Shown piece after piece: positions 1,334 to 44,013 of a stretch of DNA of 64,000 nucleotides. This DNA is from Thioalkalivibrio sp. XN279 (GTDB lineage: Bacteria > Pseudomonadota > Gammaproteobacteria > Steroidobacterales > XN24). Numbering within the stretch: the first letter of the stretch is position 1; each line of letters opens with the position of its first letter. A program made the position numbers and the translations under genes. The stretch covers positions 1-64,000 of the forward strand of contig NZ_JAANBD010000028.1 in NCBI RefSeq assembly GCF_011089885.1, given 5' to 3'. Under the pieces are notes generated by a model, which searched no databases, had not been told where the DNA came from, and saw only the letters and a list, made by a program, of their open reading frames with translations.

Positions 1334-2025
1334 ACCTCTCGGGGCGGCTGCAGCCGGCCGTCATAGAGTTCCACGACCCTGCCCATGCGATGCGCCAGGG
1401 CAAGGTCGTGGGTGACCACCACCAGCGCCGTGCCGAGTTCGCGATTCAGCTCCAGCATGAGCTCGAACACCGTGTTGCCGGTGCGCGCGTCGAGGTTGCC
1501 CGTGGGTTCGTCGGCGAGCACGACCGCCGGCCGCGTGATCAGGGCCCGCGCCACGGCCGCGCGCTGGCGCTCACCCCCGGAGAGCTTGGCCGGGCGATGG
1601 TCCAGGCGCGCGCCGAGCCCGACGCGCCCGAGCAGGTCGGCCGCGGCTGCCTTCGCCTTCGGCACGTCCATGCCGCGAATAAGCAGCGGCATCGCCACGT
1701 TCTCCAGCGCGGAAAATTCGGGCAGCAGGTGATGGAACTGGTACACGAAACCCAGCGCCTCGTTGCGCAGCCGTCCGCGTTGCGCGTCGTTCAGGGTAGA
1801 GAGGTCCCGTCCCTGCACGCGCACTGCACCGCTGGTCGGCAGGTCGAGGCCGCCGAGCAGCTGCAGCAAAGTGGTCTTGCCGGAGCCGCTGGCGCCGACG
1901 ATGGCGAGGCGGTCGCCGGCCCGGACCTCGAGCTCCACGCCGTTCAGCACGTCGACGACGTTCGCGCCTTCGACGAAGCGCTTGCACAGCGCATGGCAGG
2001 CGAGAACGGTTGCGGGCTCACTCAT
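1318..2025 (-). CDS. lolD: Lipoprotein-releasing ABC transporter ATPase LolD
   Basis: ATPase that powers extraction of outer-membrane lipoproteins from the inner membrane and hand-over to LolA. It has 235 aa, the usual size. Visible motifs are Walker [10 protein letters not shown] (about residues 44-52), the Q-loop region, the signature [15 protein letters not shown], Walker [13 protein letters not shown] and the switch histidine in VVVTHD. The start overlaps the stop of the upstream permease by 8 bp (ATGAGTGA), so translation is probably coupled. The 3' end runs 16 bp into the convergent DUF2062 gene. Confidence 0.95.
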
Positions 2026-3265: not shown

Positions 3266-4505
3266 AGCGCAACGCCTCCGCCGGCTCGGTGCGCGCGGCG
3301 CGCAGCGAGGGATAGAGCGTGGACAGCAGGCACAGCACCAGGGCGATCCCGGTCACCACCGAGACCTGCCCCCAGCGCAACTCCGAGGGCAGCCGGGAGA
3401 TGTAGTACACGTCCGCCGGCAGCAGGCTGAAGCCGAACACCGACTCCAGCGCCGGCATGATACTGCCGGCGTTGATCGCCAGGGGCACCCCGAGCCCAAC
3501 GCCGAGCAGGGTGCCGACGCAACCGATGAGCGCACCCTGCACGACGAAGATGCGCATCACGCTCCCCGGCGGCAGGCCCATGGTGCGCAGGATGGCGATC
3601 TCCGCGCGCTTGTCGCCGACGACCATCACCAGCGTGGCGACGATATTGAAGGCCGCGACGGCGATGACCAGCGACAGGATCAGCGTCATCATGGTCTTTT
3701 CGATGCGCACCGCACGGAAGTAGCTGGCATTCTCCCCGGTCCAGTCGCGCGCCTCGTAGCCCGGGCCCAGCGCTGCCGCCAGCCTGCGCGTCACTTCCGG
3801 TGCGGCGAACAGGTCGGCAAAGCGCAGGCGCAGGCCCGAGACCTCGCCGGGCCGACCGCGTGCCGCGGCGGCATCCTCCAGGTGGGCCAGTGCCAGCGTG
3901 CCGTCCTGCTCCTCCATGCCGACCTCGAACAGGCCGACCACGGTGAAGCGCCGCATGCGCGGCACCAGGCGGGTGCCGCCGTCCACGCCCGCCGGCACCA
4001 GCAGGCTCACGGCATCGCCCAGCCCGACCTGCAGGCGCGCAGCGAGCAGGCGGCCCAGCAGCAGCGCATCGCTGCCCGGCTGGAGCGCTTCCAGGCTGCC
4101 GCCCAACAGGTGCTGGTCCACTTCCGAGACCGCGCCCTCCAGCGCCGGGTCAATGCCCCGCAGCAGCGTGCCTTTCAGGCGTCCCTCGCTGGAAAGCATC
4201 GCCTGCACCTCGACGAACGGCGCCGCCCCGGTGACGCCGGGCATGGCTTTGACCTGCGCCAGCGGGCCGCGCCAGTCCTCGAGGCCGCCGCCGGGTGCAG
4301 TCACCACGCCGTGCGCACTGAGGTTGAGCAGCCGCCCGCGCAGCTCCTGCTCGAAGCCGTTCATCACCGACAACACCACGATCAGGGCGGCCACGCCGAC
4401 GGCGACGCCGAGCAGCGAGACCAGCGAGATGAACGACACGAAGCGGCTCGCCCGCCGGGCGCGCAGGTAGCGCAGGCCGATACAGATTTCCAGCGGACGA
4501 AACAT
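3258..4505 (-). CDS. lolE: LolC/LolE-family lipoprotein-releasing permease (first gene of lol operon)
   Basis: Second membrane subunit of the lipoprotein-sorting ABC transporter, also 415 aa. It opens MFRPLEICIGLRYLRARR, the usual N-terminal amphipathic start, followed by a helix and [13 protein letters not shown]. The C-terminal FtsX-like domain includes AAFNIVATLVMVVGDKRAEIAILRTMG and ends [17 protein letters not shown]. It resembles the downstream permease throughout, so the pair probably arose by duplication and works as a heterodimer with LolD. Assignment as E rather than C is provisional. The gene is divergent from the small periplasmic protein at 4611, with 105 bp between them. Confidence 0.85.
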   Translation of the reverse strand: MFRPLEICIGLRYLRARRASRFVSFISLVSLLGVAVGVAALIVVLSVMNGFEQELRGRLLNLSAHGVVTAPGGGLEDWRGPLAQVKAMPGVTGAAPFVEVQAMLSSEGRLKGTLLRGIDPALEGAVSEVDQHLLGGSLEALQPGSDALLLGRLLAARLQVGLGDAVSLLVPAGVDGGTRLVPRMRRFTVVGLFEVGMEEQDGTLALAHLEDAAAARGRPGEVSGLRLRFADLFAAPEVTRRLAAALGPGYEARDWTGENASYFRAVRIEKTMMTLILSLVIAVAAFNIVATLVMVVGDKRAEIAILRTMGLPPGSVMRIFVVQGALIGCVGTLLGVGLGVPLAINAGSIMPALESVFGFSLLPADVYYISRLPSELRWGQVSVVTGIALVLCLLSTLYPSLRAARTEPAEALRYE

Positions 4506-28791: not shown

Positions 28792-29172
28792 TCAGCGTCC
28801 TCCGAGGGCGATCTGCAGCACCGCCACCACGCCCACCGCCGCCGCAATGGCATGGACGAACTGGAGCGCCATCAGCAGCGGCACCTTCAACGCGCCGTGC
28901 ACGTAGTCTTCTGCGATGACGCGCGTGCCGAGCTGCGAATGCCAGGCCGCGGTCAGCACCAGCAGCACCAAAAGCGCGGCGTTCAGCGGGCGGGCGATCC
29001 AGGCCACCAGCGCGGCGCGATCGCCGAGATCAGCGCCGAGCAGCGAAAAGGCGAACCACAGGCCGAGCAGCGCCAGCGCCACGGCCGTGACGCGCTGCTG
29101 CCACCACTGCGACGTGCCGTCGCCGGCCGGCCCCAGGCCGATGGCGCGGCCGAGTGGAGTGCGCAGGCTCAT
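28792..29172 (-). CDS. sdhD: Succinate dehydrogenase membrane anchor subunit
   Basis: Small membrane subunit that binds haem b and quinone together with SdhC, 126 aa. Start ATG 29172 overlaps the sdhC stop by 4 bp. It begins [33 protein letters not shown], matching the family's conserved SGxxHWWxQR region. Three membrane helices follow. The second contains the haem-type histidine stretch [23 protein letters not shown]. Further upstream in-frame ATGs belong to the sdhC region. Confidence 0.93.
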
Positions 29173-29561
29173 GCCCCACCTCCGGACAGCAACAGGCCCC
29201 AGGCAATCAGCGTGAGCGCAGCCGCGGCGACGAGCACGATCCAACCCGAACGGTAGACCTGCGCAATCTCGAAGCCCCGGCCCGAATCCCACCACAGGTG
29301 CCGGATGCCATTGCACAAGTGGTAGAAGAAGGCGAACACGCCGAGGAACAGCACGATCTTCACCGGCCAGGCGCCGAGCACCCCCAGCGCCGCGGCATAC
29401 GCCGACTCGCCGGCCGCCAGCGCCGCCAGCCAGTAGACCAGCAGCAGCAGTCCGGCGGCGAGCGCCGCGCCCGTGAAGCGATGGGAAATGGACAGCACCG
29501 AGGTGATCTGCGGACGGTAGATCTGCAGGTGCGGCGAAAGGGGCCTCTTGCCGGCAGTCAT
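29169..29561 (-). CDS. sdhC: Succinate dehydrogenase cytochrome b556 subunit
   Basis: Membrane anchor subunit of complex II, 130 aa. The quinone-site segment RPLSPHLQIYRPQITSVLSISHRFTG is at about residues 6-31, and the haem-ligand histidine lies in FFYHLCNGIRHLWWD (about 78-92). Three membrane helices are visible. It is the first subunit gene of the sdh operon. An 88-bp gap separates it from the SDHAF4 homologue. Confidence 0.96.
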   Translation of the reverse strand: MTAGKRPLSPHLQIYRPQITSVLSISHRFTGAALAAGLLLLVYWLAALAAGESAYAAALGVLGAWPVKIVLFLGVFAFFYHLCNGIRHLWWDSGRGFEIAQVYRSGWIVLVAAAALTLIAWGLLLSGGGA

Positions 29562-29649
29562 GGGCCAGGTCCTCCTTGGCAGGACGAGCGCTTGGTCATG
29601 CGAACCATGGAACGGCGCACCGTCGAGGGACGAACGCGCCGCGAAAGTG

Positions 29650-29829
29650 TCAGAAGTCTATGCAACGGCCGTTCTTTTCCCAGTCGCCGTAACGCACCGG
29701 CTCCGGGCCCTCGCGTCCCCCGATTTCTTTCGGCAGCGGCCTGGCGGCGGTTTCGGACACAGGATCCACGCCGGCCTCGGCCGCTTCGCTGTCGGGACTG
29801 CCAGGGTTGTCTTTGGCCTGCTCGGACAT
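29650..29829 (-). CDS. SDHAF4-family (DUF1674) succinate dehydrogenase assembly factor
   Basis: Tiny protein, 59 aa from ATG 29829, or 65 aa from ATG 29847. The C-terminus PKEIGGREGPEPVRYGDWEKNGRCIDF carries the DUF1674 signature shared with mitochondrial SDHAF4/Sdh8. In mitochondria this factor binds flavinylated SdhA before it joins SdhB. The N-terminal half is acidic and probably disordered. Its place immediately upstream of sdhC supports a bacterial counterpart role, but this is inference from family and context. It is divergent from ygfZ. Confidence 0.85.
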   Translation of the reverse strand: MSEQAKDNPGSPDSEAAEAGVDPVSETAARPLPKEIGGREGPEPVRYGDWEKNGRCIDF

Positions 29830-29885
29830 GACTGAGGATTTTGCCATGCACCGCAACAACAGGCCAGCGCCGCGTGAACGCGCGG

Positions 29886-29891
29886 TAGAAT
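29886..29891 (+). promoter_or_regulatory. Candidate -10 element for ygfZ
   Basis: GGTAGAATTCC in the divergent ygfZ/SDHAF4 gap contains TAGAAT 36 bp before the ygfZ ATG. The same TAGAAT box occurs on the minus strand upstream of prfB (33915-33920, GGTAGAATTCG) and rpoE (GATAGAATGCC). That recurrence supports its use as a -10, though -35 matches are weak. Confidence 0.35.
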
Positions 29892-29926
29892 TCCACGTTC
29901 GCCGGAACCCCTGGAGCCCAGTGCCG

Positions 29927-30760
29927 ATGACCTCTCCCGCCTGCACCCTGCCCATGCTCGGAAGCCTCGTCGTCCGCGGCGACGATGCCCGCAGCTTCCT
30001 GCAGAACCAGCTTTCCTCGGACCTCGCCCTGGTGACGGACACGAGCGGCCAGCTGTCGGGCTGGCATGACCCGAAGGGCCGCGTGCTGGCGTTCCTGCGC
30101 GTGCTGCCGCATGCGGAAGGATTCCTGCTGGTCATGCACGCCGGGCTCCTGGCGACCGTCGCGCAACGCATGCGCATGTTCGTGCTGCGCGCCCGCGTCA
30201 CCATCGAGGCCGGGCCCGCCGTTTACGGCGTCTCCGCGGAGGCGCTGGCGACGCTGCTGGGCCCGGGCATGTCATTGCCCGAGACCAGTCATCCCGAGTC
30301 GGGCGGTCCAGTGTCCGCCGGCGCGCTCCCCGCCATCGTCACCGGCCGCCGCAGCGCCCTGCGCCTGCCCGGCGCGGCCGGCTGGCTGGTCGCGGGCGAA
30401 GTGCCGCCCGAGCAGGTCGCCGACGACGCCACCGCCTTGGCCGCATGGGAACGCGCCGAACTCGAAGCCGGCCTGCCCGAGGTCTATCCCGAGACCAGCG
30501 GTGAGTTCGTGGCGCAGATGCTCAACCTCGACCGCATCGGTGCGATCAGCTTCACCAAGGGCTGCTATCCCGGCCAGGAGATCGTCGCCCGGGCGCACCA
30601 CCTCGGCCGCGTCAAGCGCCGCGCCCAGGTGTTCCGCCTGCCCGGGCCGCCGCCGGCGCCCGGCGCCGTGCTGGACGAGCCCGCCGGCAAGGTCGTGCGC
30701 GCGGTGCCGCTGAACGGCGAGTCGCTCGTGATGGTCGTGGTCGCCGAGCCGGAGGGCTGA
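29927..30760 (+). CDS. ygfZ: Folate-binding protein YgfZ
   Basis: Tetrahydrofolate-binding protein of the GcvT fold that supports iron-sulfur enzymes such as MiaB and succinate dehydrogenase, 277 aa. The signature is KGCYPGQEIVARAHHLGRVKR (about 205-225), whose cysteine is functionally important in E. coli. It starts at ATG 29927 (MTSPACTLPMLGSLVVRGDDA), with GGAG upstream. Divergence from the sdh operon fits a role in maturing the three iron-sulfur clusters of SdhB, although that link is inferred. Region A with paired hairpins follows. Confidence 0.93.
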   Translation: MTSPACTLPMLGSLVVRGDDARSFLQNQLSSDLALVTDTSGQLSGWHDPKGRVLAFLRVLPHAEGFLLVMHAGLLATVAQRMRMFVLRARVTIEAGPAVYGVSAEALATLLGPGMSLPETSHPESGGPVSAGALPAIVTGRRSALRLPGAAGWLVAGEVPPEQVADDATALAAWERAELEAGLPEVYPETSGEFVAQMLNLDRIGAISFTKGCYPGQEIVARAHHLGRVKRRAQVFRLPGPPPAPGAVLDEPAGKVVRAVPLNGESLVMVVVAEPEG

Positions 30761-30787
30761 CCTGCCCCGGTCGTGCACGCTTTCAGA

Positions 30788-30877
30788 CCTGCCCGCGGGG
30801 CCGGACCGTCATCGCCCTGTCTCCCTCGGAAATCTTTATCTCGCTCGACAGGGCGATGACGTCCCGACCCCGCTGCC
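30788..30877 (+). repeat. Palindromic element A1, behind ygfZ
   Basis: The core stem GTCATCGCCCTGTC (30808-30821) pairs perfectly with GACAGGGCGATGAC (30847-30860) around a 25-nt loop containing GGAAATCTTTAT. The outer flanks (GGCCGGACCG left, GTCCCGACC right) extend the pairing imperfectly. It lies about 47 nt after the ygfZ stop. The reverse complement of A2 matches it closely in flanks and loop but has a different, self-compensated stem. Confidence 0.8.
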
Positions 30878-31124
30878 CCGCCACGGGTCCAGCCGAGCCG
30901 GGTGCAGTAACGCTCGGTCAGGCTCCCAGGCTAGCCGGCCGGCGATGTGCCAGACGTGGCTTGGCTACCGCCGCGCCATCGCAGTTCCGCCCAAGCATTC
31001 CGCGCGGACACCGACCTGCGCCGCCGGCCGCGGGCAAGCGGCCATACAGCCATAGCGCTGATACCGGTCGTACCGGCCAAGCCATCGCGGCCCCGGTGCG
31101 CTTGCGACGCTGACGAACCTCAAA

Positions 31125-31215
31125 GGCAGCGCGGTCGGGACGCACGATGCCCATCGAGCGATATAAAGATTTCCTGAGCGAGAGGGGCATCGTGCGGTCC
31201 GGCCGCGCGGTCAGG
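31125..31215 (-). repeat. lysS: Palindromic element A2, behind lysS, inverted copy of A1
   Basis: CGCACGATGCCC (31141-31152) pairs perfectly with GGGCATCGTGCG (31185-31196). Read on the minus strand, in the lysS sense, the flanks GGCCGGACCG and GTCCCGACC and the loop GGAAATCTTTATATCGCTCGA match A1. The stem differs from A1 on both arms in a compensated way. It lies about 73 nt after the lysS stop. Confidence 0.8.
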
Positions 31216-31268
31216 GCGGGGGCCACACGGCGGTCTGGGCGGGCCGTCGCGCGGCCGGGGGCACGCGG

Positions 31269-32765
<1,497 letters not shown>

Positions 32766-32782
32766 GTCGATTCCCCGTGCGG

Positions 32783-33878
32783 TCAGAGGCCTTGCTTCAG
32801 GCTCGCCTCGATGAACTGGTCCAGGTCGCCGTTGAGCACGGCCTGGGTGTTGCCGACCTCGACGCCGGTGCGCAGGTCCTTGATGCGGGACTGGTCGAGC
32901 ACGTAGCTGCGGATCTGGCTGCCCCAGCCGATGTCGGCCTTGGTCTCTTCCAGCGCCTGGGCCTCGGCGCGCCGCTCCTGCATTTCCTTCTCGTAGAGCT
33001 TGGCCTTGAGCTGCTTCATGGCCGTGGCCTTGTTCTTGTGCTGGCTGCGGTCGCTCTGGCACTGCACCACGATGCCGCTGGGCCCGTGCGTGATGCGCAC
33101 GGCGGACTCGGTGCGGTTGACGTGCTGGCCACCGGCGCCGCTGGCGCGGTAGACGTCGATGCGCAGGTCGGCGGGGTTGATCTCGATGTCGACCTCGTCG
33201 TCCACCTCGGGCGAGACGAACACGCCGGCGAAGCTGGTGTGGCGCCGGTTGCCGGAATCGAACGGCGACTTGCGCACCAGGCGGTGAATGCCGGTCTCGG
33301 TGCGCAGCCAGCCGTAGGCATAGGGACCGGTGACATGGACCGTGGCGCTCTTGATGCCGGCGACCTCGCCCTCCGAGGCCTCGATGATCTCGGCCTGGAA
33401 GCCGTGCGCCTCCATCCAGCGCAGGTACATCCTGAGCAGCATTTCCGCCCAGTCCTGGGCCTCGGTGCCACCCTGCCCCGCATTGATGTCGACGAAGGCG
33501 TTGTGTTCGTCCATGGCGCCGGAGAACATGCGCCGGAACTCAAGGTCGCCGACTTTTTTTTCCAGCGAATCGGCGTCGGCGGCGATGCCGGCGACGGTAT
33601 CTTCGTCCCCTTCCTCGATGGCCATCTCGAGCAGGTCGCGGCCGTCGTTCACGCCGCGCGAAATCTGGTCGAGGACGGCGACTACACCCTCGAGCTGGGC
33701 GCGTTCCCGACCCAGGGCCTGGGCCTGCTCCGGCTTGCTCCAGACGTCGGGGTTCTCAAGCTCGCGCATGACTTCCTCGAGCCGCTCTTTCTTGCCCGGG
33801 TAGTCAAAGGTACCTCCTCAGGGCATCGGCCCTGTCGGCGAGGTCGTTCAGTTGCTGGCGAAGCTGCGCGGTTTCCAT
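32783..33878 (-). CDS. prfB: Peptide chain release factor 2, with programmed +1 frameshift
   Basis: Class I release factor for UGA and UAA, 364 aa when the frameshift is taken. It begins at ATG 33878 ([24 protein letters not shown]), meets an in-frame TGA at 33806-33804, and continues in the +1 frame with [15 protein letters not shown]. The anticodon-mimicking tripeptide SPF is in [16 protein letters not shown], and the hydrolysis motif GGQ is in [14 protein letters not shown]. Automated calls starting at 33769 would miss the first 36 residues. lysS follows in the same operon. Confidence 0.97.
33804..33818 (-). promoter_or_regulatory. prfB: prfB programmed +1 frameshift site
   Basis: On the minus strand AGGAGG-TAC-CTT-TGA-C. 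A Shine-Dalgarno-like AGGAGG (33818-33813) sits 3 nt before the slippery CTT codon and UGA stop. This is the known autoregulatory arrangement: low RF2 slows termination at UGA and favours slippage from CTT to TTT, restoring full-length RF2. Confidence 0.95.
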
Positions 33879-33965
33879 GGCGATGAGTGTTTTCGCTGCT
33901 CAGGGCAAACGCGAATTCTACCACGCAGCCTGCAGCTGACGGCGGCCGCGAGCGGGCGGTGCGGC

Positions 33966-35666
33966 TCAGGCGGGCTCGAGGTATTCGACCACCAGCTGCG
34001 CGGACCTGAGACCGTTGTACTCGTTCACGTCGAGGCGATACGCGAGGCGCAGGCGCGCCGGTCGCGCGTTGCCGAGACGGTCCGCCTGGCGGAACGCAAT
34101 GGCATCCATGATGCGCCGCCCGCCCGCCGGGCGAACCCGCATCTTGAGATGGTCAAGACCCACCGTGCGCGCATCGAGCAGCTCGAAGCAGCCATCGAAC
34201 AGCGGCTCAGGAAACCCCTGCCCCCACGGCGCGGCATCGCGCAGCAGCTCAGCGGTGGCCAGGCCCAGTGCCTCTTCCGGCAGTTCGCCGTCGGAAACGA
34301 TCTCCCCGTCCAGCAGCCCGGGTTCCAGTCGCGCAGCCACAGCCGCGGCCAGCGCCGCACGGAAATCGTCCAGCCCGGCCGGGGCCAGCGTCAGCCCGGC
34401 CGCCATGGCATGGCCGCCGAAGCGCTCCATCAGCCCGGGATGCGTGGCATCGACATCCGCCAGGGCATCGCGGATGTGCAGCCCGGGCACCGAGCGCGCA
34501 GAGCCCTTGAGCATGCCGCTGTCGTCTGCCGCGAAGGCCACGACGGGCCGGTGATAGCGCTCCTTGAGGCGTGCCGCCACCAGTCCGACCACGCCGCTGT
34601 GCCAGCCGGCCCGGTGCACGCACAGCACCGGCGGCAGGCGGCCCGCCGCGGGCTCCAGCCCGGCCACGGCGCGCAACGCCTCCTGCTGCATCTGCGCCTC
34701 GATCTGCTTGCGCTCCTCGTTCAGGCTCGACAGCAGCATGGCCAGCTCCTCCGCACGTCCGGGGTCGTCGCTGAGCAGGCACTCGATGCCCACGGACATG
34801 TCGTCCAGCCGCCCGGCGGCGTTCAGGCGCGGCCCGGCGGCAAAGGCCAGGTCGGTCGTCACGACGGTGCGCGGGTCGCGGTTGCCGGCGCGCAGCAACG
34901 CGGTCACGCCCGGACAGCAGGCGCCGGCCCGGATACGGCGCAGCCCGTGCTCGACCAGGATGCGGTTGTTGCGGTCCAGCGGCACCAGGTCGGCCACCGT
35001 GCCCAGCGCGACGAGATCCAGCAGGCCGGGCACCAGGCCCTTGTCGGCGCCGAGCTGGCGCGCCAGCGCCGCGGCCAGGTAGAACGCCACGCCCACCCCG
35101 GCCAGGCAGCGGCTGGGGAACGCCTGTCCCGGCAGCGCCGGATTGACGATGGCCGTGGCCGCCGGCAGCGTTTCGCCCGGCAGGTGGTGGTCCGTGACCA
35201 GCACTTCCATGCCGAGTTCGCGTGCCAGCGCCACGCCGGCGTGGCAATTGATGCCGCTGTCGACCGTGACCAGCAGCGCTGGCGCGTGCTGCTCGGCATC
35301 GCGCACCAGTGCCGTGCTGAGGCCGTAGCCGTGCACGAAGCGATCGGGCACGAGGTAGGACACAGCGGCGCCGAGTGCGCGCAGCACGCGCACCAGCAGC
35401 GCGGTGCTGGTGGCGCCGTCGGCGTCGAAGTCACCGATCACCAGGATGCGCGAACCGCGCGCGACGTGCCCGGCGAGCAGCGCGGCCGCCGCTTCGACAC
35501 CCTCGAGGCTGCCGACCGGGGCCAATCCGCCGAGCCCGAGATCGAGCTCCGCCGCAGCGCGCACGCCGCGCGCGGCGTACAGGCGCGCCAGCACCGGCGG
35601 CGAACCCGCCAGCGCCGCCAGCGCGGCGGCATCGACGTCGCGGCGGCGGATGGGCCGGGTCAGCAC
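33966..35666 (-). CDS. recJ: Single-stranded-DNA-specific 5'-3' exonuclease RecJ
   Basis: DHH-superfamily nuclease for recombination and mismatch repair, 566 aa. Motifs seen are VIGDFDADGATSTALL (about 74-89), VTVDSGINCHAG, VLVTDHHLPGE (the DHH), GTVADLVPLDRNNR, AGRLDDMSVGIECLL and the DHHA1 region RFGGHAMAAGLTL. A C-terminal OB-fold follows. It overlaps the RpfE-like gene by 7 bp and lies 87 bp upstream of prfB. The recJ-prfB-lysS order is shared with xanthomonads. Confidence 0.96.
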   Translation of the reverse strand: MLTRPIRRRDVDAAALAALAGSPPVLARLYAARGVRAAAELDLGLGGLAPVGSLEGVEAAAALLAGHVARGSRILVIGDFDADGATSTALLVRVLRALGAAVSYLVPDRFVHGYGLSTALVRDAEQHAPALLVTVDSGINCHAGVALARELGMEVLVTDHHLPGETLPAATAIVNPALPGQAFPSRCLAGVGVAFYLAAALARQLGADKGLVPGLLDLVALGTVADLVPLDRNNRILVEHGLRRIRAGACCPGVTALLRAGNRDPRTVVTTDLAFAAGPRLNAAGRLDDMSVGIECLLSDDPGRAEELAMLLSSLNEERKQIEAQMQQEALRAVAGLEPAAGRLPPVLCVHRAGWHSGVVGLVAARLKERYHRPVVAFAADDSGMLKGSARSVPGLHIRDALADVDATHPGLMERFGGHAMAAGLTLAPAGLDDFRAALAAAVAARLEPGLLDGEIVSDGELPEEALGLATAELLRDAAPWGQGFPEPLFDGCFELLDARTVGLDHLKMRVRPAGGRRIMDAIAFRQADRLGNARPARLRLAYRLDVNEYNGLRSAQLVVEYLEPA

Positions 35667-36631
35667 GCCAGCGCCCAGTGGCGCGGACGCCGCCAGAACT
35701 GCAGCAGGCCGGCTGCGCCGAGTTCATGCGTGGCGCGACCCGTGGCAAGGCGCAGGCGCATCCCGGGGCTGCGCCTCAGCCGTGCGAGCAGCGGTGCAAT
35801 GACCTCGCGATCGATCCGTGCCAGCGCCTCGACCTGGAATGCTTCGGGCGCCAGCGCCCAGGTTGGTGCCTCGTCGCGCGCGCCCGACTGCAGCGGCACG
35901 ACGCCGAGACGGCGTAATCCCGCGAGATACGGCTCGCCCGCTCCGGGGACGGCCGGCACCTCGACCGCTGCGCGCGCGGGCAGCTCAAGCCGCCCGCCGC
36001 CCCAGGGGTGCAGCCCGGCCACCAGTGGCAGGCCCTGCTCACGCCGCGCTGCATTCACAGGGTGCGCGAAGAACAGCATTTCCGCCTCCGACAACAGCTT
36101 TCTCAGCGCGGGCTCCGGCGGCGCCGGCCGATGCGCCGGGTCGAGCAACAGCGACGGCGTCGCAAAGCCGCGCCAGGGCACGCCTGCGCTCTCCTGCCAG
36201 AGGTACCAGCGCACCGGCGTGGCCACCTGCAGCCGCACGCCGTCAGCGGCGAAAGCTGCGTTGAAGCCTGCTGCAAGCGCCTGCGCCTCTGCCGAGGTCA
36301 GGGCCAGCGCTGGCGCCCGCAGGCGGAACGCCCCGCGCTGCTCGGCGTCCATGCCCAGCGGCTCCACCCGCAGGCAAGCAGACGCGGCCGCGCCGAGATC
36401 AGCCAGCGCGCTGACCGGGCCGACCGGCCAGCGCCCCAGGTCGCCGCCCGCCTGCGCCGCCAGCAGCGCCCAGCAGCATCCGCCCGGGCGCGACCGCGCG
36501 CGCGCCAGCAAGCGTTCGAGCGCCGGCAGGCGCGGCGCGTCCTGCTGCGCGACCGTCTCCAGGCCGGGGAGAAAAAGGGTGGACCGGGTGGGCACGATGT
36601 CGTTACGTCTTGAGCTCGGGAGCAGATCCAT
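35660..36631 (-). CDS. RpfE-like / phosphoglycerate-mutase-like conserved protein
   Basis: Function unknown, 323 aa. It resembles the cytoplasmic protein next to recJ in many beta- and gammaproteobacteria, called RpfE in Xanthomonas and often annotated as phosphoglycerate-mutase-like. Typical segments are CWALLAAQAGGDLGRWPVGP (about 52-71), ACLRVEPLGMDAEQRGAFRL, LALTSAEAQALAAGFNAAF and VRWYLW. The second half has AGLHPWGGGRLE. No catalytic residues of a mutase can be named. The start ATG at 36631 is only 12 bp from the divergent ATG of the next gene. Confidence 0.75.
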   Translation of the reverse strand: MDLLPSSRRNDIVPTRSTLFLPGLETVAQQDAPRLPALERLLARARSRPGGCCWALLAAQAGGDLGRWPVGPVSALADLGAAASACLRVEPLGMDAEQRGAFRLRAPALALTSAEAQALAAGFNAAFAADGVRLQVATPVRWYLWQESAGVPWRGFATPSLLLDPAHRPAPPEPALRKLLSEAEMLFFAHPVNAARREQGLPLVAGLHPWGGGRLELPARAAVEVPAVPGAGEPYLAGLRRLGVVPLQSGARDEAPTWALAPEAFQVEALARIDREVIAPLLARLRRSPGMRLRLATGRATHELGAAGLLQFWRRPRHWALAC

Positions 36632-36643
36632 TATCGTAACCGG

Positions 36644-37015
36644 ATGCGACTGACACTCGACAGCCGGCCCGGCGCCAATCTCGTCACCCGCATCGGGCCC
36701 GCGGGCATCCAGGTGGGCGAAGACGTCCTGGACGCCAGCTTCATCATCAGCCCCGGCGAACTCCTGCGCCGCTGGGCAGTGAGCGACGCCGCCACCCTCG
36801 ACCTGGCGGCACTGGCGCCGGCGCTGGCGCTGGAACCGGAGATCCTGGTGCTCGGCACGGGCGCCCGCATCCAGTTCCCGGCGCGCGCGCTGTTCGCGGA
36901 ACTCGCCGCTAAAGGCATCGGCCTGGAAGTGATGGATACTGCGGCCGCCTGTCGCACCTACAACGTGCTGGCTGGCGAAGAGCGGGCGGTGGTGGCCGCG
37001 ATCATCCTGCCCTGA
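36644..37015 (+). CDS. Mth938-domain (DUF498/NDUFAF3-like) protein
   Basis: Small cytoplasmic protein of the Mth938-like fold, 123 aa. It shows the family's ISPGELLRRWAV, ALEPEILVLGTGARIQFP, GIGLEVMDTAAACRTYNVLAGEERAVVAAIILP. The human relative NDUFAF3 helps assemble complex I, while bacterial members are uncharacterised. It is divergent from the RpfE-like gene with almost no leader, and convergent with rpoS, whose stop lies 36 bp away. Confidence 0.87.
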   Translation: MRLTLDSRPGANLVTRIGPAGIQVGEDVLDASFIISPGELLRRWAVSDAATLDLAALAPALALEPEILVLGTGARIQFPARALFAELAAKGIGLEVMDTAAACRTYNVLAGEERAVVAAIILP

Positions 37016-37027
37016 GCGTCCTGCAAC

Positions 37028-37049
37028 GGGCCGCGCGTGGCGCCGGCCC
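37028..37049. terminator. Weak bidirectional hairpin between the Mth938 gene and rpoS
   Basis: GGGCCG (37028-37033) pairs with CGGCCC (37044-37049) across a 10-nt loop in the 36-bp convergent gap. It is followed by CTTCAGTCC on the plus strand. There is no U-tract on either side, so it is at best a weak shared terminator. Confidence 0.35.
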
Positions 37050-37051
37050 CT

Positions 37052-38095
37052 TCAGTCCAGCAGCGTGTCCAGGGACAGGCCGTGGCTCTCCATGATGCTG
37101 CGCAGCCGCGCGAGCGCGTCGAGCTGGATTTGCCGTACCCGCTCGCGGGTCACGCCGATCTCCTCTCCCACCTGCTCCAGCGTGAGCCGCTCGCAGCCGT
37201 GCAGCCCGAAACGCCGCTCCACCACCGCACGCTGCTTGTCGCTGAGGCGCTCAAGCCAGTGCTCCAGCACCATGTGCACGTCGTCGAGCTGCGCCAGGTT
37301 GGCGGGCTCCATCTCTTCCGCGCCGGGCAACAGGTCGAGCAGGTTGCGCTCGCCGTCCCGCCCCTGCACGTTGGCGCTGGTGACCTGCCGATCATTGAGA
37401 CCGAGCGCACGCGACACGTCGTCCGGCTCGCAGTCCAGCGCCGCCGCGATCTCCTCGGCCGTCGGGTCGCGGTCCAGCTCCTGCGTCAGGCGTCGTGCGG
37501 TGCGCAGGTAGACGTTGATCTCCTTGAGCACGTGAATCGGCAGCCGGATGGTGCGGGTCTGGTTCATCAACCCGCGCTCGATGGCCTGCCGGATCCACCA
37601 GGTTGCATAGGTCGAGAAGCGAAAGCCTTTCTCCGGATCGAACTTCTTCACCGCATGGATCAGGCCGAGGTTGCCTTCCTCGACCAGGTCCAGCAGCGGC
37701 AGGCCGCGGTTCATGTAGCGCCGGCTGATCTTCACCACCAGGCGCAGGTTGCTCTCGATCATGCGCTTGCGCGCCGCCTCGTCACCGGACCGCGCACGGC
37801 GCGCGAAGTACACCTCTTCCTCGGCGGTCAACAGGGGAGAGAAGCCGATCTCCGAGAGATACAGGCGGGTCGCGTCGGGGGCTTCGCCGTCTGCGTGGCG
37901 GGCATGGGGTGCAGTGGACGCAGCGGCATCGGGATCGGCATCGGCATCGGCATCGGCATCGGGCTCATCGACCACGGCGTCGTCCCCGAAAGCCCCGTCC
38001 TCGACGGCGGCAAGTTCCGGCTCGTCCGTGTCGATTTCCGGCGCCTCGTCGACGTCGGGACTGCGACCTTCGTCCTTGTCGCGCTTCTTGCCCAT
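37052..38095 (-). CDS. rpoS: RNA polymerase sigma factor RpoS
   Basis: Stationary-phase and general-stress sigma factor, 347 aa. The first 75 residues are acidic and low-complexity, including a DADADADAD run encoded by a DNA hexamer repeat. Then follow region 1.2 ([16 protein letters not shown]), region 2 ([51 protein letters not shown]), region 3 and region 4 ([21 protein letters not shown]). [24 protein letters not shown] and the nlpD neighbour identify RpoS rather than RpoD. Its main promoter probably lies inside nlpD, as in relatives. Confidence 0.95.
37928..37963. repeat. rpoS: Hexanucleotide tandem repeat inside rpoS
   Basis: Six consecutive units of ATCGGC/ATCGGG (GATGCC on the coding strand), the inner four identical. 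They encode the Asp-Ala run near residues 45-57 of RpoS. Gain or loss of units would stay in frame and alter only the length of the acidic N-terminal linker. Confidence 0.9.
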
Positions 38096-38124
38096 GTCGC
38101 CCCAGTGCTTGATCGGAACCCGTT

Positions 38125-38865
38125 TCAGGGACCCTGCCGGACCGGCAAATAAACGACCGGATCGATCGGCTTGCCGTCCCGCCTGATCTCGAAGTGCAGC
38201 AGGGGACGGTCGCCGGGACCTCGCCCCATCAGGGCGATGACCTGTCCGGATTTCACCTGGTCCCCCTCCGCGACTCTCAGCGACTGGTTGTAACCGTAGG
38301 CGCTGAGATACGAATCGTTGTGCTTCAGGATAATAAGCTGGCCGTAACCGATCAGTCCACTACCGCTGTAGACCACCTGGCCGTCCGCTGCAGCAAGAAT
38401 TTCCAGGCCGTCCCGTCCCGCAATACCGATCCCGGTCGGATTCCGACGGCTCTCGCCGAAGCGCCAGACCATCGCTCCCTGTGCCGGCCAGCGCCATTGC
38501 GGCGCAGGCTGGTTGGCGCCCTGCCGCGGCGGCACCGTGGTGACTCGCGGCGGCGCAGCGTCGCCCGCTCGCTGCGGTGGCGCGGTTCTCACGACCGGCC
38601 CCGTGCCGCCGCGCGCCGGCTTCAGGCGAATGTGCTGGCCGGGATAAATGCGGTTGGCATCGGTGATGCCGTTCCAGCGCGCCACCTCGCGCCAGTCCAG
38701 CCGGTAACGGAAAGCGATCTGGAACAGCGTGTCGCCCCGCTGCACCACGTGGACGTCCGGCCTGTCGGCGACGCTCTGCTGGGGAGGATAAGGATCCCAG
38801 CGCGTCAGTTCGGCGCAGCCGGCCGAGACGATCAGCGCGGCCACGAGCAGCCAGCGCCAGGTCAC
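38125..38865 (-). CDS. nlpD: Lipoprotein NlpD (LysM, degenerate M23 domain)
   Basis: Outer-membrane lipoprotein that activates amidase AmiC at the division site, about 246 aa. The N-terminal signal ends in a lipobox around [10 protein letters not shown] LysM domain spans about 38-82 ([29 protein letters not shown]). The C-terminal M23 domain is degenerate: GIGIAG replaces the metal-binding HxGxD and the final motif is LHFEI, as expected for a non-enzymatic activator. GTG 38865 overlaps the upstream stop by 4 bp (GTGA). GTG 38883 is the alternative. rpoS follows 29 bp downstream. Confidence 0.92.
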
Positions 38866-39440
38866 GCCTGCACGATGAACCACGCCAGCAACAGCAGCGC
38901 GACGAGCAGCCAGCCGAGGAACTCGACGTTGTGGCGCAGCTTCTGCTCCATTGGCGCCCCGCCCCAGCGGATCAGCCCGGCGACGAGAAAGAATCGTCCG
39001 CCCCGCCCGACGATGGATGCCAGCACGAAGGCCGGCAGGAACATGGCGAGCGCGCCGGCCGCCACGGTGAACATCTTGTAGGGAATGGGCGAGAAACCCG
39101 CCGCCAGGACGGCCCAGAAACCCCAGGTCTCAAACCAGTCCCGGGCCTGCAGGTAGCCTTCCCAGTAACCGGCGGAAACCAGCCAGGGCTCGATGGCTTC
39201 CAACGCGAAGTAGCCAATTGCATAACCCAACAAGCCGCCGGCTACCGAGGTGAGCGTCGTCAGCAGGGCCAGGCGCCAGGCACGGTCGGGCCGCGCCAGC
39301 GCCATCGGCGCCAGCATCACGTCAGGCGGAATGGGGAAAAAGCTGGACTCGGCAAAGCTCAGCCCGCCGAGATACCACGGTGCCTTGGGATGCGCCGCCC
39401 AGCGCAGCACGCGGTCGTACAGCGGCCCGAACAGGCGCAT
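38862..39440 (-). CDS. YqaA/DedA-family membrane protein
   Basis: Polytopic inner-membrane protein of the VTT/DedA superfamily, YqaA branch, 192 aa. Recognisable are YLGGLSFAESSFFPIPPDVMLAPMAL (about 23-48), LTSVAGGLLGYAIGYFALE, and GFSPIPYKMFTVAAGALAM with the conserved proline-rich loop. DedA relatives take part in undecaprenyl-phosphate or phospholipid flipping; the substrate of the YqaA branch is not established. It lies between pcm and nlpD, joined by TGATG and GTGA overlaps. Confidence 0.9.
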   Translation of the reverse strand: MRLFGPLYDRVLRWAAHPKAPWYLGGLSFAESSFFPIPPDVMLAPMALARPDRAWRLALLTTLTSVAGGLLGYAIGYFALEAIEPWLVSAGYWEGYLQARDWFETWGFWAVLAAGFSPIPYKMFTVAAGALAMFLPAFVLASIVGRGGRFFLVAGLIRWGGAPMEQKLRHNVEFLGWLLVALLLLAWFIVQA

Positions 39441-40108
39441 CAGGCGGTACCGCCGAGCAAAGGCACGAAACTCACCAGCCCAAGGCTGCGCCGCTCGTAC
39501 TGGTCGCCGTGACGGGTGATTTCCAGCAACTCCTGGCGGCCGCGGGGCCCGACCGGAATCACCATCCGGCCGCCGTCCTCGTCCAGCTGCTCGAGCAACG
39601 CCTGCGGCACCTGGTCCGGGGCCGCAGTGACGAGAATGCCGCCAAAAGGCGCATGACGCTTCCAGCCCTCGAAGCCGTCCCCATGGCGCAGATGGACGTT
39701 GTAGAGGTCCAGCGAGCGCAGCAGGGGGCGTGCACGCCTGACCAGCGGCGCGAGGCGCTCGATGCTGTAGACCTGCGGCACGATGCCGGCCAGCACCGCG
39801 GTCTGGTAGCCGCAGCCGGTGCCGATCTCCAGCACCTTCTCCGGCGTCGGCTCGGCCACGATGGCCTCGGTCATGCGCGCGACCACCCAGGGCTGCGATA
39901 TGGTCTGCCCCAGCCCGATCGGCAGCGCCGTGTCCTCGTAGGCGCGACTGGCCAGGGCCTCGTCGACGAACAGGTGGCGCGGCACGCTGCGGATCTGCTC
40001 CAGCACGCGATGGTCAGAGATGCCCTGCTCCTTCAGGCGCTGCACCAGCCGGTCGCGCGTGCGGGCCGAGGTCATGCCGATGCCGTGGTGGTCCAGGCGG
40101 TCGTTCAC
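39440..40108 (-). CDS. pcm: Protein-L-isoaspartate O-methyltransferase
   Basis: Repairs isoaspartyl residues in aged proteins using SAM, 222 aa. It has [19 protein letters not shown], the SAM motif [16 protein letters not shown] and [11 protein letters not shown] near the end. It sits in the conserved surE-pcm-nlpD-rpoS stationary-phase cluster. It overlaps surE by 4 bp and the YqaA gene by 1 bp. The first 11 residues before [15 protein letters not shown] may be a non-conserved extension. Confidence 0.96.
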
Positions 40109-40857
40109 CCGCCGTCTCTCCCGAGCCAGTCCGCGATTTTCTCGACGTGCTCGTGCCGCGTGAGATCCACCTTCAGCGGTGTCACCGCCACCCGGCCCGA
40201 CTCGATGGCGTGAAAATCGGTGCCCGGTCCCGCATCCTGGCCGGGGCCGGCGAAACCCACCCAGTACAGCGGGCGACCGCGCGGGTCGGTGCTGCGGATC
40301 ACCGGCTCCGCCTTGTGGCGGTAGCCGAGGCGTGTCGCCTCGAAGCCGTCCAGCTCTTCCCAGGCGACATCCGGCACGTTGACGTTGAGGATGGTCTGCG
40401 GCGGCAGCTCACGTTCCAGCGCCTGTTGTACCAGGCGCCGGGCCACCCGCCCGGCCGTGTCGAAATGACGGTGCTTGCCCCACACCAGGGAAATGGCGAT
40501 GGTCGGCAGGCCGAGGAACCGACCCTCCATGGCGGCCGCCACGGTGCCCGAGTAGATCACGTCGTCGCCCAGGTTGGCGCCGTCGTTGATACCCGAGATC
40601 ACCATGTCGGGCTCCTCGTCCAGCAGGCCGGTGAGGGCCAGGTGGACGCAATCCGTCGGCGTGCCGTTGACGAAGTAAAAGTCAGGCCCGACCTCGGTGA
40701 GGCGCAGCGGCTGCTCCAGCGTCAGCGAATTGCTGGCGCCGCTGCAGTTGCGCTCGGGCGCGACGATGACGATGTCGGCGAGGTCGCGCAGGTGCTCTGC
40801 GAGACAGCGCAGGCCCTCGGCGCGATAACCGTCGTCATTTGCAAGCAGGATTCTCAA
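40105..40857 (-). CDS. surE: 5'/3'-nucleotidase SurE
   Basis: Metal-dependent nucleoside monophosphate phosphatase, 250 aa. The N-terminal metal site is [19 protein letters not shown] (Asp8, Asp9), [10 protein letters not shown] carries the next ligand, and [26 protein letters not shown] forms the active-site loop. It heads the surE-pcm-YqaA-nlpD-rpoS operon. On the minus strand GGTATAGT (40895-40890 plus upstream GG) could be an extended -10 in the 64-bp gap shared with smr. Confidence 0.96.
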
Positions 40858-40921
40858 GGGTGGACAACCGGCCCCGGAAGATGGCAGTTACTATACCGGC
40901 GAGCCACGGGAGGAACCAGCG

Positions 40922-41443
40922 ATGAGCCCCTCAGACGACGACCGCGAGCTGTTCCGCAAGGCCGTCGAGGACGTCCGGCCCATCGCAGGCCGCGAAGAGC
41001 CCCCGGCGCGCCCGACGCCCCCGCCGCGCGCCCGTTTCCGCCGCCGTGACGAGGCCGAGGTGCTCGCAGAGAGCCTGGCCGCCGATCCGGAAGCCGAAGG
41101 CGAGACCGGTGAGCACCTGGGCTTTCGCCGCCCGCAGGTTGGCTTGCCGCTGTTCCGCAAGCTGCGCCGCGGCGAGATCAGCGTGCGCGACGAGATCGAT
41201 CTGCACGGCCTCACCGCAGCGGAAGCCCGCGCCGCGCTGTACGAGTTCCTCGCCGAGGCCGGCCGCCTCAACTTCCGCTGCGTGCGCGTGATCCACGGCA
41301 AGGGCAAGCGCTCGGGCCACGGCGGGCCGGTCATCAAGCGCAAGATCGGGCGCTGGCTGCAGCTGCGCGAGGACGTGCTGGCTTATTGCTCGGCGCGGCC
41401 GGTGGACGGCGGCACGGGCGCTGTCTACGTCCTGCTCGGCTGA
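40922..41443 (+). CDS. Smr-domain DNA endonuclease SmrA
   Basis: The 173-aa protein has a charged, flexible N-terminal half and a C-terminal Smr domain (about 90-170) with the two hallmark motifs EIDLHGLTAAEA and VIHGKGKRSGHGG. Smr domains nick DNA or RNA; the physiological role of SmrA is not settled. A strong ribosome-binding site GGGAGGAA (40908-40915) precedes the ATG. It is divergent from surE and convergent with truD, with gap B in between. Confidence 0.9.
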   Translation: MSPSDDDRELFRKAVEDVRPIAGREEPPARPTPPPRARFRRRDEAEVLAESLAADPEAEGETGEHLGFRRPQVGLPLFRKLRRGEISVRDEIDLHGLTAAEARAALYEFLAEAGRLNFRCVRVIHGKGKRSGHGGPVIKRKIGRWLQLREDVLAYCSARPVDGGTGAVYVLLG

Positions 41444-41498
41444 CGGCCTGCTCGGCTGACAGTCAGTTCGGCGAGGGCTCCGGGGGCTGGGCCGCGAC

Positions 41499-41547
41499 CT
41501 CGTCATGTTCCCTCTTGGCTCAGATGCCTGCGAGTGAACATGACGAG
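41499..41547 (+). repeat. Hairpin element B1, behind smr
   Basis: CTCGTCATGTTC (41499-41510) and GAACATGACGAG (41536-41547) form a perfect 12-bp stem with a 25-nt loop that contains CTTGGCTCAGATGCCTGCG. It begins about 56 nt after the smr stop. The loop is repeated in B2 on the other strand while the stem sequence is different. Confidence 0.85.
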
Positions 41548-41721
41548 TCCGCGCCCCTGCTTCGCGGGTTCACTCGGATTCCTGCCATCGCCACGACGGT
41601 GGCCGTCGGACCTCACTGACCCAAAGCCCTGGCGGTCCGCCTCGCGCGTGTCGGCCGAGGCATAGGCGCCGACTGTGCGCCTTTGTCATTATCCCGACCA
41701 CGACACAGTGGCAGCGGCCGT

Positions 41722-41764
41722 GCACGCCTCGCGCGCAGGCATCTGAGCCAAGCGGGAGGCGTGC
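41722..41764 (-). repeat. Hairpin element B2, behind truD, inverted copy of B1
   Basis: GCACGCCTC (41722-41730) and GAGGCGTGC (41756-41764) form a perfect 9-bp stem around a 25-nt loop. Read in the truD sense the loop again contains CTTGGCTCAGATGCCTGCG. It starts 46 nt after the truD stop. The stem shares little with B1, so both arms changed together. Confidence 0.85.
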
Positions 41765-41810
41765 GCGGTCGCTGTCGCGGTCAGGGATGGCGGGGGGATC
41801 GCCGGGGCGA

Positions 41811-42812
41811 TCAGTCGACGTCGAGCAGCTCGCGCAGCACGGCCGTGGCGAACGCCCCGGCGGGCAGGCTGAAAGACAGCTCGAGGACATCGTCCTCGGT
41901 GCGCCACGCGAGCTCTGCCACGCGCAGGCGCAGCGACCGCCGCTCCTGCTCCAGCCCGTGCGCCGCGAGTCCCGCGGCGAATAGCGGGAAGCGGGCGGCG
42001 ACGACGCGCTCGAGTTCGGCGCCGGGGCCGTGGCCGGGCGGTTCGCCCTGGCCCCAAAGCGGACCCGTGGGATGCACGTCCAGCGCCGCGAGACGGGCAG
42101 GCAACGCGTCGTCGCCGGCCTCGGCGATGAACCAGCTGCCGCTGCCGTCGAGCTGCACGGGGTCGCCCGCTGCCGCTGTCTCCCAGCTACCCGCTGATAT
42201 GCGCGCGGCGAGGACCGCGTTGAAGATCAGCGAACGCGCCGCCGACAGGGCGAATCCGCGCTCGTCACGCCGTGGGCGCAGCTCGCCGCTGAACCAGCGC
42301 TCTGCAAGGCGCAGGTTGCCCTGCTCGCGACCGAAGCGCTGCGGGCCGAAGGCATTGGGCACGCCGCGCGTCGCGATCGCCCGCAGGCGCGGCTCGAGCA
42401 GGCCCGGGTCGGCTTCCAGCCCGGTGACACGCAGGCGAAAAGTGTTCCCGCGCAGCGCGCCGCGCTTGAGCTTGCGGTCGTGCGACCGCCATTCGAGCAA
42501 TTCCACGCCCTCGATCATGAGCGCGGCGGGATCCGGATGCCGGCCACCGGGACAAAGCACGCTGAACCACTGCTCAGTGACGGCATGGCGGTCCTTGAGG
42601 CCGGCGTAGCCGACGTCGTGGCGCGGCCGCCCGGCCCAGCGCGCGAGCTGCCCCGCCACCCAGGCCGTGTTGCAGCCCGTCTCGCGCAGCCGCAGGAAGA
42701 GATGCTCGCCCTCACCTTTCAGGGCGAAGCTGAGCTCCTCGGTGACGACGAAATCCGCGGGCTCCGCACGAATACGGCCTTTGCCGGCCGGGCCGCCGAA
42801 GGCGAACGGCAA
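41811..42812 (-). CDS. truD: tRNA pseudouridine synthase TruD
   Basis: Makes pseudouridine-13 in tRNA-Glu, 333 aa as called. The catalytic aspartate lies in VGYAGLKDRHAVTEQWFSV (about 67-85). Further conserved parts are GNTFRLRVTG, VPNAFGPQRFG and ARSLIFNAVLAAR. No ATG or GTG exists at a suitable place: TTG 42812 is the first standard start. A CTG at 42845, overlapping the ispF stop as CTGA and preceded by GAGGAAG, would add 11 residues that look family-like (FDPWRDLPFAFGG). The true start is therefore uncertain. Confidence 0.9.
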   Translation of the reverse strand: MPFAFGGPAGKGRIRAEPADFVVTEELSFALKGEGEHLFLRLRETGCNTAWVAGQLARWAGRPRHDVGYAGLKDRHAVTEQWFSVLCPGGRHPDPAALMIEGVELLEWRSHDRKLKRGALRGNTFRLRVTGLEADPGLLEPRLRAIATRGVPNAFGPQRFGREQGNLRLAERWFSGELRPRRDERGFALSAARSLIFNAVLAARISAGSWETAAAGDPVQLDGSGSWFIAEAGDDALPARLAALDVHPTGPLWGQGEPPGHGPGAELERVVAARFPLFAAGLAAHGLEQERRSLRLRVAELAWRTEDDVLELSFSLPAGAFATAVLRELLDVD

Positions 42813-42841
42813 ATCACGCCAGGGATCGAAGGCTGGCTGGC

Positions 42842-43321
42842 TCAGGAGGCTTCCTCGAGCAGTGCCACGGCATGCGCCGCCAGGCCTTCACCGCGCCCGA
42901 TGTAGCCGAGACGTTCAGTGGTGGTCGCCTTGACGTTGACGCGCGCCGCGGCGATGGCGAGGTCGGCGGCGATGCGCTCGCGCATCTGCGGGATGTGCGC
43001 CGCCATGCGCGGCGCCTGCGCGACGATGGTGACATCCGCGTTGGCGACGCGCAGGCCGTGCTCCGCGACACGCGCAACCACGGCGCGCAGCAGGTCGCGG
43101 CTGTCCGCGCCTTTCCATTGCGCGTCGGTGTCCGGGAACATGCCGCCGATGTCGCCCAGCCCGGCGGCGCCGAGCAGCGCGTCGCACAGCGCGTGCAGCG
43201 CAACGTCACCGTCGGAATGCGCCACCACGCCGCGCTCGTGCGGGATGGCCACGCCACCGACGTGCACCACGTCGCCCTCCCCGAAGGCGTGAACGTCGAA
43301 TCCATGGCCTATGCGCATCAT
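42842..43321 (-). CDS. ispF: 2-C-methyl-D-erythritol 2,4-cyclodiphosphate synthase
   Basis: Fifth step of the MEP isoprenoid pathway, 159 aa. Zinc ligands are in [11 protein letters not shown] (D and H) and the second site in [42 protein letters not shown] closes the CDP pocket. ATG 43321 overlaps the ispD stop by 4 bp, so the two enzymes are translationally linked. dxr, the first committed step, is at the right window edge. Confidence 0.97.
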
Positions 43322-44013
43322 TTCTCCTCGCGGGACCGCAGCACCGCGTCGGCCAGCGCCAGGTCTTCCGGCGTGGTCACCTTGAGGTTCGCGCCTGAAC
43401 CCGCCACCAGTGCCGGGCGATGCCCGGCCCGCTCCATCGCCGCGGCCTCGTCGGTGACGGGCTCACCGGCCTCGACAGCATCGGCCAGCGCCCGGCGCAA
43501 CAGCCCGTAGCGAAACATCTGCGGCGTCAGCGCGCGCCACAACTTCTCGCGCGGGACAGTTCCCACGACGCGGTGTTCATCATCCGCCTGCTTGAGGGTA
43601 TCCGCCAGCGGCAACGCCAGCAGCCCGCCGACCGGGTCGTTGCCGATCTCCGCGAACAAGGACTCGAGATCCGCTGACGAAAGGCAGGGACGCGCCGCGT
43701 CGTGCACCAGCACCCAGTCGTCCTCCGCCGCGCGGTCAGCGAGCGCTTCGAGGCCGCTGAGCACGGAGTGGCAGCGCTCGACACCGCCCGGCGCGGTGAG
43801 GATCCGCGGCCCGGGGGAGACGGCCTCCTGCCAGCGCCTGTCCCCGGCCGCGATGACGAGCACCACCGCGTCGATGCGCGAGCAGCTCAGCAACGGGGCC
43901 AGGGAGTGAGCGAGCAGGGGCCGTCCGCGCAGCGGCAGGTACTGCTTGGCGGTCGCTGCGCCCATCCTGCGCCCGCTGCCGGCGGCGGGCACGACGGCCC
44001 AGGCGCGCGCCAT
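43318..44013 (-). CDS. ispD: 2-C-methyl-D-erythritol 4-phosphate cytidylyltransferase
   Basis: Joins MEP to CTP, 231 aa. The nucleotide-binding start is [28 protein letters not shown] (about 7-34) and [12 protein letters not shown] lies near residue 105. The C-terminal [11 protein letters not shown] and [16 protein letters not shown] are typical. It starts on the last base of the ftsB stop (TGATG), the usual ftsB-ispD-ispF arrangement. Confidence 0.96.

Follow-up and report, generated by a model that had tools for sequence, protein, structure and literature searches.

Integron attC sites have as their hallmarks an R box (GTTRRRY) and a cassette array, and in IS200/IS605 elements the left and right ends lie on one strand. 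The ends of the latter are described as strand-specific hairpins with an irregular stem in which bases of the loop are read, and TnpA-REP is reported to bind single-stranded REPs strand-specifically via the GTAG tag and a mismatch that the stem must have, with the loop also read in one group (PMC8266576). GTAG REPs themselves are presented as imperfect palindromes with a strand tag, which often form dimers with different stems or loops and lie in convergent and tandem spaces (PMC3733652). Table 1 of that paper gives a size of 20–40, a stem of 5–13 bp and a loop of 2–20 nt; the arrangement with inward-facing tags is named TT in the same source, and the usual spacer is 20–100.

Here, we describe a family of hairpins that shares with the GTAG REPs a 5' GYAG tag, a strand-specific imperfect palindrome and an extragenic location in convergent or tandem spaces with inverted dimers. 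It departs from them in size (stem of ∼27 bp, loop of 17–27 nt), and no cognate RAYT (Y1) gene with neighbouring repeats was found in the genomes and loci searched. A search of the open-access literature returned no published description of this family.

The hairpin pair between smr and truD

The window is the whole stretch of DNA that was analysed, i.e. the 64,000 nucleotides at positions 1–64000 of contig C28 of a 3.13-Mb genome (G000; hereafter the source genome). The features discussed below are as follows.

40922–41443, plus strand: smr (named in the initial annotation), 173 aa, with orthologues in five of six relatives
41486–41560: hairpin B1, whole stem-loop, folded strand minus (opposite to smr), 24 of 29 pairs Watson–Crick
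41514–41532, plus strand: loop core of B1, CTTGGCTCAGATGCCTGCG, which reads CGCAGGCATCTGAGCCAAG on the folded strand
41557–41560, minus strand: GCAG tag (GYAG-type) of B1 at the 5' foot of the folded strand, place read from the sequence
41561–41704, no strand: spacer between B1 and B2, in which the codon model calls no gene
41705–41781: hairpin B2, whole stem-loop, folded strand plus (opposite to truD), 24 of 30 pairs Watson–Crick
41711–41714, plus strand: GCAG tag of B2 at the 5' foot, place read from the sequence
41734–41752, minus strand: loop core of B2, inverted copy
41811–42812, minus strand: truD (named in the initial annotation), convergent to smr, 333 aa, stop end at 41811
30795–30873: hairpin A1, same family, loop class A, folded strand minus, model R2 E-value 1.1e-18
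31129–31208: hairpin A2, inverted partner of A1, folded strand plus, model R2 E-value 2.1e-18

The initial annotation had reported two hairpins with an identical 19-nt loop core between smr and truD. Both copies of the core, CTTGGCTCAGATGCCTGCG, are indeed exact, and they are the only two matches in the window at up to three mismatches, against a chance mean of 0.03 and with two or more matches in 0 of 100 shuffles. Each copy is centred inside its own hairpin. The perfect inner stems (CTCGTCATGTTC, 12 bp, and GCACGCCTC, 9 bp) and the 25 nt between the arms were confirmed in both hairpins, and the distance of ∼45–55 nt from the stop codons, as previously given, was measured as 55 nt for smr and 46 nt for truD. 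The whole hairpins are larger than these inner stems. Their non-Watson–Crick positions comprise, on the minus strand of B1, one G.T, two A.G, one G.G and one A.A, and, on the plus strand of B2, four G.T/T.G, one A.G and one G.G. The two stems differ from each other, so that their description as unrelated holds for B1 versus B2; it does not hold for the genome as a whole, in which stems resembling that of B1 (at C25:27495) and that of B2 (at C25:25662) recur.

A de novo hairpin scan of the window returned four such hairpins, namely A1, A2, B1, and B2, compared with none in five shuffled windows, and the GCAG tag is present in all four. No T-run follows B1 or B2 in the sequence read for these two hairpins. 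Elsewhere in the window, at 2020–4480, there are several direct repeats 1,240 nt apart with 73–78% identity, which probably represent two tandem paralogous genes.

Occurrence, tags and genomic placement of the hairpin family

At up to three mismatches, the source genome contains 8 matches to the B core and 26 to the A core (GGAAATCTTTATMTCGCTC), with 0 for the reversed controls. Thirty-three of these 34 matches (8 of 8 for B) lie inside a hairpin detected by the scan, compared with 2 of 270 random positions, an outcome that favours the initial annotation, which had proposed a check for cores occurring without inverted repeats. The sole exception is an A match (L032). In the congeneric genome XN8, four of five B-core matches at the same threshold lie inside a detected hairpin, the exception being at C33:622553.

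In total, 118 hairpins were extracted from the regions around matches in three congeneric genomes, and 110 with a loop matching one of nine reference loops were kept (59 from the source genome, 34 from XN8, and 17 from G002); the regions were picked for having matches, and the set is hence a biased census. The eight hairpins that were dropped had low loop scores and appeared by eye to be non-members. The elements are hairpins of 80–100 nt, with a stem of ∼27 bp containing mismatches and a loop of 17–27 nt. Several loop classes are present and, as read on the folded strand, include A (GAGCGAGATAAAGATTTCCGAGCGA), A' (GAGCGGCATCAGATTTCCAAGCGA), C (GAGGGCATCTCATTAACCGA), and B (CGCAGGCATCTGAGCCAAG). 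B1/B2 and A1/A2 belong to this one family. Model R2, which was built from 42 sequences of A-like classes and holds neither a B element nor the A pair of the window, detected A1, A2, and B2 (1.4e-6 for the last) in the window, all on the folded strand, and did not detect B1.

Two long intervals between hairpins were found in the source genome. At C25:25662–27563 (L085), two B hairpins 1.9 kb apart enclose genes for a BlaI/MecI-like repressor and a BlaR1-like membrane peptidase, and at C29:226247–228798 (L096), a 2.4-kb stretch between two hairpins contains HicA-like and Fic-like genes (all named by eye); the latter stretch is missing at the orthologous XN8 site (L107). Both intervals were considered as candidates for an autonomous copy with a transposase between its hairpins, and neither shows a transposase by eye. 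In XN8, contigs break within family elements at the start of C17 (L105) and the ends of C62 (L139) and C6 (L138), and the assembly may therefore understate the length or the mutual similarity of the copies there.

A GYAG motif lies within 10 nt of the 5' foot of the folded strand in 87 of the 110 hairpins, 52 of them at one offset, and in 11 of 13 B-class hairpins. For comparison, the reverse-complement motif occurs at the 5' foot in 11 hairpins and GYAG at the 3' foot in 9, and the background is 20.5% of 20-nt windows. Neighbouring hairpins are inverted with the tags facing inward in 33 of 36 pairs; the other three pairs point in the same direction, and one of these contains a loop flipped within its stem. 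The spacer between paired hairpins is 77–281 nt (31 units). When genes were called with our own codon model, 70 clusters had called genes on both sides, of which 43 are convergent, 27 tandem, and none divergent, compared with 52 tandem, 5 convergent, and 5 divergent pairs among the adjacent genes of the window. Single hairpins account for 36 of the 70 clusters, and in the convergent clusters the median distance past the stop codon is 47.5 nt. Because inverted pairs sit between convergent genes, the cores come to lie in the sense orientation, and 30 of the 34 A- and B-core matches are located beyond the stop codon of a same-strand gene.

The identity of the loops within a pair, pointed out for B1 and B2 at the outset, proved to be a tendency in some genomes: the members of a pair have a common loop class in 16 of 22 pairs in the source genome (5.7 expected) and 4 of 6 in G002 (1.6 expected), but in 5 of 8 in XN8, close to the 4.5 expected. 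Mixed-class pairs exist (C/A twice, C/B once, and others), and pairing between the two loops of a pair, considered as a candidate function, is therefore not general.

Stem covariation, the folded strand and evolution in relatives

In an alignment of 24 rows, four to five of which are from another family of the order, all 21 stem pairs have changed on both sides. Two-sided changes amount to 158 cells, compared with 40 in shuffles and 25–39 when the partners were slid, and 93.1% of the cells pair, compared with 60.0% after shuffling. These changes, together with the related loops carried on unrelated stems elsewhere in the order, bear out the earlier suggestion that the loop rather than the stem is the common identity of the hairpins.

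The mismatches identify the strand that folds. With the orientation of the 110 hairpins fixed by the loop alone, the folded strand has 132 G.U against 7 A.C, 121 A.G against 2 C.T, and 67 G.G against 6 C.C mismatches, whereas the strand that is sense with the upstream gene has 121 C.T, 132 A.C or C.A, and 67 C.C but only 7 G.T. Each of the three genomes and each loop class shows the bias, which persists after collapsing to 75 distinct inner 12-mers (G.U 90 against A.C 4; 54 elements leaning one way and 1 the other). Two recurrent purine mismatches are found in the element stem. The folded strand is also the more stable one in 109 of 110 hairpins with DNA parameters and in 101 of 110 with RNA parameters, RNA and single-stranded DNA being indistinguishable by sequence. 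The strand bias of the non-Watson–Crick pairs thus places the folded strand opposite to the one proposed in the initial annotation: the loop had been taken to act on the sense strand of the upstream gene, and the tolerated G.U, A.G, and G.G mismatches, as well as the better fold, lie on the other.

Most XN8 elements are located at sites orthologous to elements of the source genome, with flanks that are 76–94% identical. The orthologue was nonetheless the best match in the partner genome for only 20 of 42 orthologous hairpin pairs, and a copy from the same genome was closer in both genomes for 24 of 42, all of them non-B (24 of 36 non-B and 0 of 6 B pairs); these counts are to be read with the knowledge that choosing the best of many copies favours paralogues, that one XN8 hairpin is used twice, and that a pair marked as flipped (L093/L128) is probably mis-paired. 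The lack of closer same-genome copies among the six B pairs indicates that the B class has been inherited site by site. At one orthologous site (C29:285828 in the source genome and C38:136667 in XN8), the stem is nearly the same, with loop A in one genome and A' in the other. Inversion of the loop within a preserved stem is seen between C24:12938 of the source genome and C28:6317 of XN8, and between C38:104307 of XN8 and C21:216325 of G002.

XN8 retains B2 next to truD (L126); its smr lies at a different place and has no element beside it. In G003, G004, and G005, smr directly adjoins or overlaps the gene that follows it, and no hairpin of the family was found at these sites. The B core gave weak three-mismatch matches in G004 (two) and G006 (one), which is the control level. 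A covariance model of class A built from 23 sequences matched the source genome, XN8 (G001), and G002, but nine further genomes from the family and order gave no match. R2 was run over 117 genomes of the order and matched five, with at least 36 matches in the source genome, at least 35 in XN8, at least 13 in G002, at least 3 in G077, and at least 1 in G116. In G077, which belongs to another family of the order, the loop TCGCTCGGGGAACTCTTACTCGCTC and close variants are carried on four hairpins with stems unrelated to those of the genus, and the 58-nt arms of one of these hairpins fill the space between two called convergent genes. The G116 sequence (C49:4356–4534, L179) is a perfect palindrome with 76-nt arms around a family loop at a contig end; the 3' end of an open frame falls within it, and it is possibly an artefact or fold-back of the assembly. 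A third model, run over 369 genomes of the class with strict filters and with 14 candidates per genome scored, matched, among the candidates scored, only the source genome, G012 (5.1e-5), and G132 (1.5e-4); few chance matches are expected at such values over 369 genomes, but the E-values are rough, and the overlap with the genomes searched earlier is uncertain. The family is largely confined to one genus. As candidate sources outside the relatives, viral contigs were considered, of which 0 stretches contain the exact B core, and one exact match elsewhere, in Actinacidiphila soli, has no detected hairpin, lies 37 nt from the edge of the stretch examined, and was taken as chance.

Interpretation and comparison with known systems

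In our reading, B1 and B2 form the ends of a single inverted pair of REP-like elements that are oversized and recognised partly via the loop, and we put the chance that this reading is right at about even; with it, we infer a RAYT-like enzyme, the loss of that enzyme, and the turnover of loops. In its favour are the strand bias of the mismatches, the more stable folded strand, the tag, the inverted pairs, the placement of the clusters, the covariation of the stems, the closer same-genome copies among the non-B hairpins, and the reported reading of tag, mismatch, and loop by TnpA-REP. The elements would have spread as folded single strands of DNA, acted on in trans by a nuclease or transposase of the RAYT/TnpA-REP (HUH) type that reads hairpins. 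This enzyme would read the tag, the mismatch, and the loop, and any perfect stem would serve, so that stems would drift by compensated changes. The loop class would follow the enzyme of the lineage, with copies being replaced by or converted towards it, and the source genome would have lost the enzyme. Effects on neighbouring transcripts, e.g. a barrier between convergent genes, would be secondary. Several findings stand against the REP-like reading, i.e. the oversized stem and loop, the long spacers, the inward (TT type) tags, the B class without replacement (0 of 6), the failure of R2 to detect B1, the lack of a clear target duplication or sharp end by inspection, and the absence of Y1_Tnp matches in the source genome at E-values up to 1. 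Seven Y1 loci from relatives likewise contain no hairpin of the family, and a RAYT association was thus not found in either search. XN8 encodes two Y1 proteins. The Y1 genes L157 (XN8 C27:158334–159164) and L162 (G004:C24:50742–52774) are flanked by other palindromes (CCTTACGTGACACA and GGGGACAGTTTACC, respectively), which are candidate REPs of their own.

A tentative alternative, which may be correct although we would not expect it to be, is a loop-defined class of elements not derived from REPs, in which the apical loop of ∼25 nt would be the heritable, recognised unit on any long palindrome at a site. A loop-specific factor would keep the loops alike across families, replace the loop class genome-wide in each lineage, and leave the stems free. 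This alternative fits with the finding, in a second family of the order, of related loops whose stems are unrelated and reach 58 nt per arm, and with the loop swap and the loop flips at orthologous sites with the stem kept. We consider it rather doubtful that the hairpins are structured RNAs of the folded strand, either small RNAs or the far ends of transcripts of the opposing genes; in the latter case, each convergent transcript would pass through the hairpin nearer to it and end at the farther one, immediately ahead of the 3' end of its neighbour. Tolerance of G.U on one strand combined with paired changes is the classic signature of RNA, the hairpins are placed right after stop codons in the convergent clusters, and in the alignment the non-B classes have tandem G.A pairs on either side of the inner G-C pairs of their loop. 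However, no Rfam 15 family was found, seven loci giving 0 matches at E-values up to 0.1 and window positions 29000–44000 giving mir-9456 on B1 at 28.3 bits, far below the 80-bit cut-off. In addition, B1 and B2 are not followed by a T-run, the preference for the folded strand is at least as clear with DNA parameters, and two-hairpin units also occur between tandem genes.

That the pairs are small transposons (MITEs) with long terminal inverted repeats, each with a hairpin, moved by a DDE or other transposase, appears improbable to us. In some cases, homology extends along the entire pair, with copies located at different sites and in either orientation (u2, u5, u6, and u14 over ∼400 bp at 77–79%; u4, x1, x3, and x4 over 373–442 bp at 79–85%), but other copies have only the hairpin in common (93% over 90 nt, 94.6% over 92 nt, and 97.6% over 82 nt), single hairpins are common, and the ends of 34 units were ragged by inspection, with no sharp common end or target duplication noticed. 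Still less credible, and in our judgement very unlikely, is the model of the initial annotation, in which the hairpin belongs to the 3' UTR of the upstream gene and is recognised via its loop on the sense strand. The position of most cores past the stop of a same-strand gene agrees with it, but the tolerated mismatches are wrong for a sense RNA and, where a pair lies between tandem genes, one of its hairpins lacks a gene of this kind. A sense-strand terminator was rejected because of the mismatch bias and, for B1 and B2, the missing T-run.

The mismatch test tells, from sequence alone, which strand of a palindromic repeat is under selection. So far, REP recognition has been elucidated for a small number of short elements whose loops are small, and this family, with its long conserved loop, its free stem, and its lineage-wise turnover of loops, offers a natural experiment on the features that a single-strand nuclease reads. 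If the hairpins act as RNA instead, they represent an undescribed strand-specific structure at many convergent gene ends.

Among the known systems, intrinsic terminators of convergent genes resemble these elements in having a hairpin shortly past the stop codon, but B1 and B2 have no T-run, the loop is conserved, and the mismatches are on the wrong strand for the proximal gene. Ends of the IS200/IS605 type are likewise strand-specific hairpins with an irregular stem; in contrast, the source genome has no TnpA and the two hairpins here are inverted. Compared with REP-RAYT systems, a Y1 transposase is absent from the source genome, and none lies beside family hairpins in the relatives examined. 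The stem is two to three times longer than that of GTAG REPs, the loop is longer and carries the conservation, the spacers are long (77–281 nt), and the tag is mostly GCAG. The likeness to GTAG REPs, BIMEs, and REPINs, as these are described in PMC3733652 and PMC3116915, extends to the imperfect palindrome with stem mismatches and a 5' G(T/C)AG tag on one strand, to inverted dimers that may differ in stem or loop, to the extragenic location in convergent and tandem spaces, and to species-specific variants. Although we do not file the family as a proven member of this group, its features suggest that it looks, and probably worked, like a REP.
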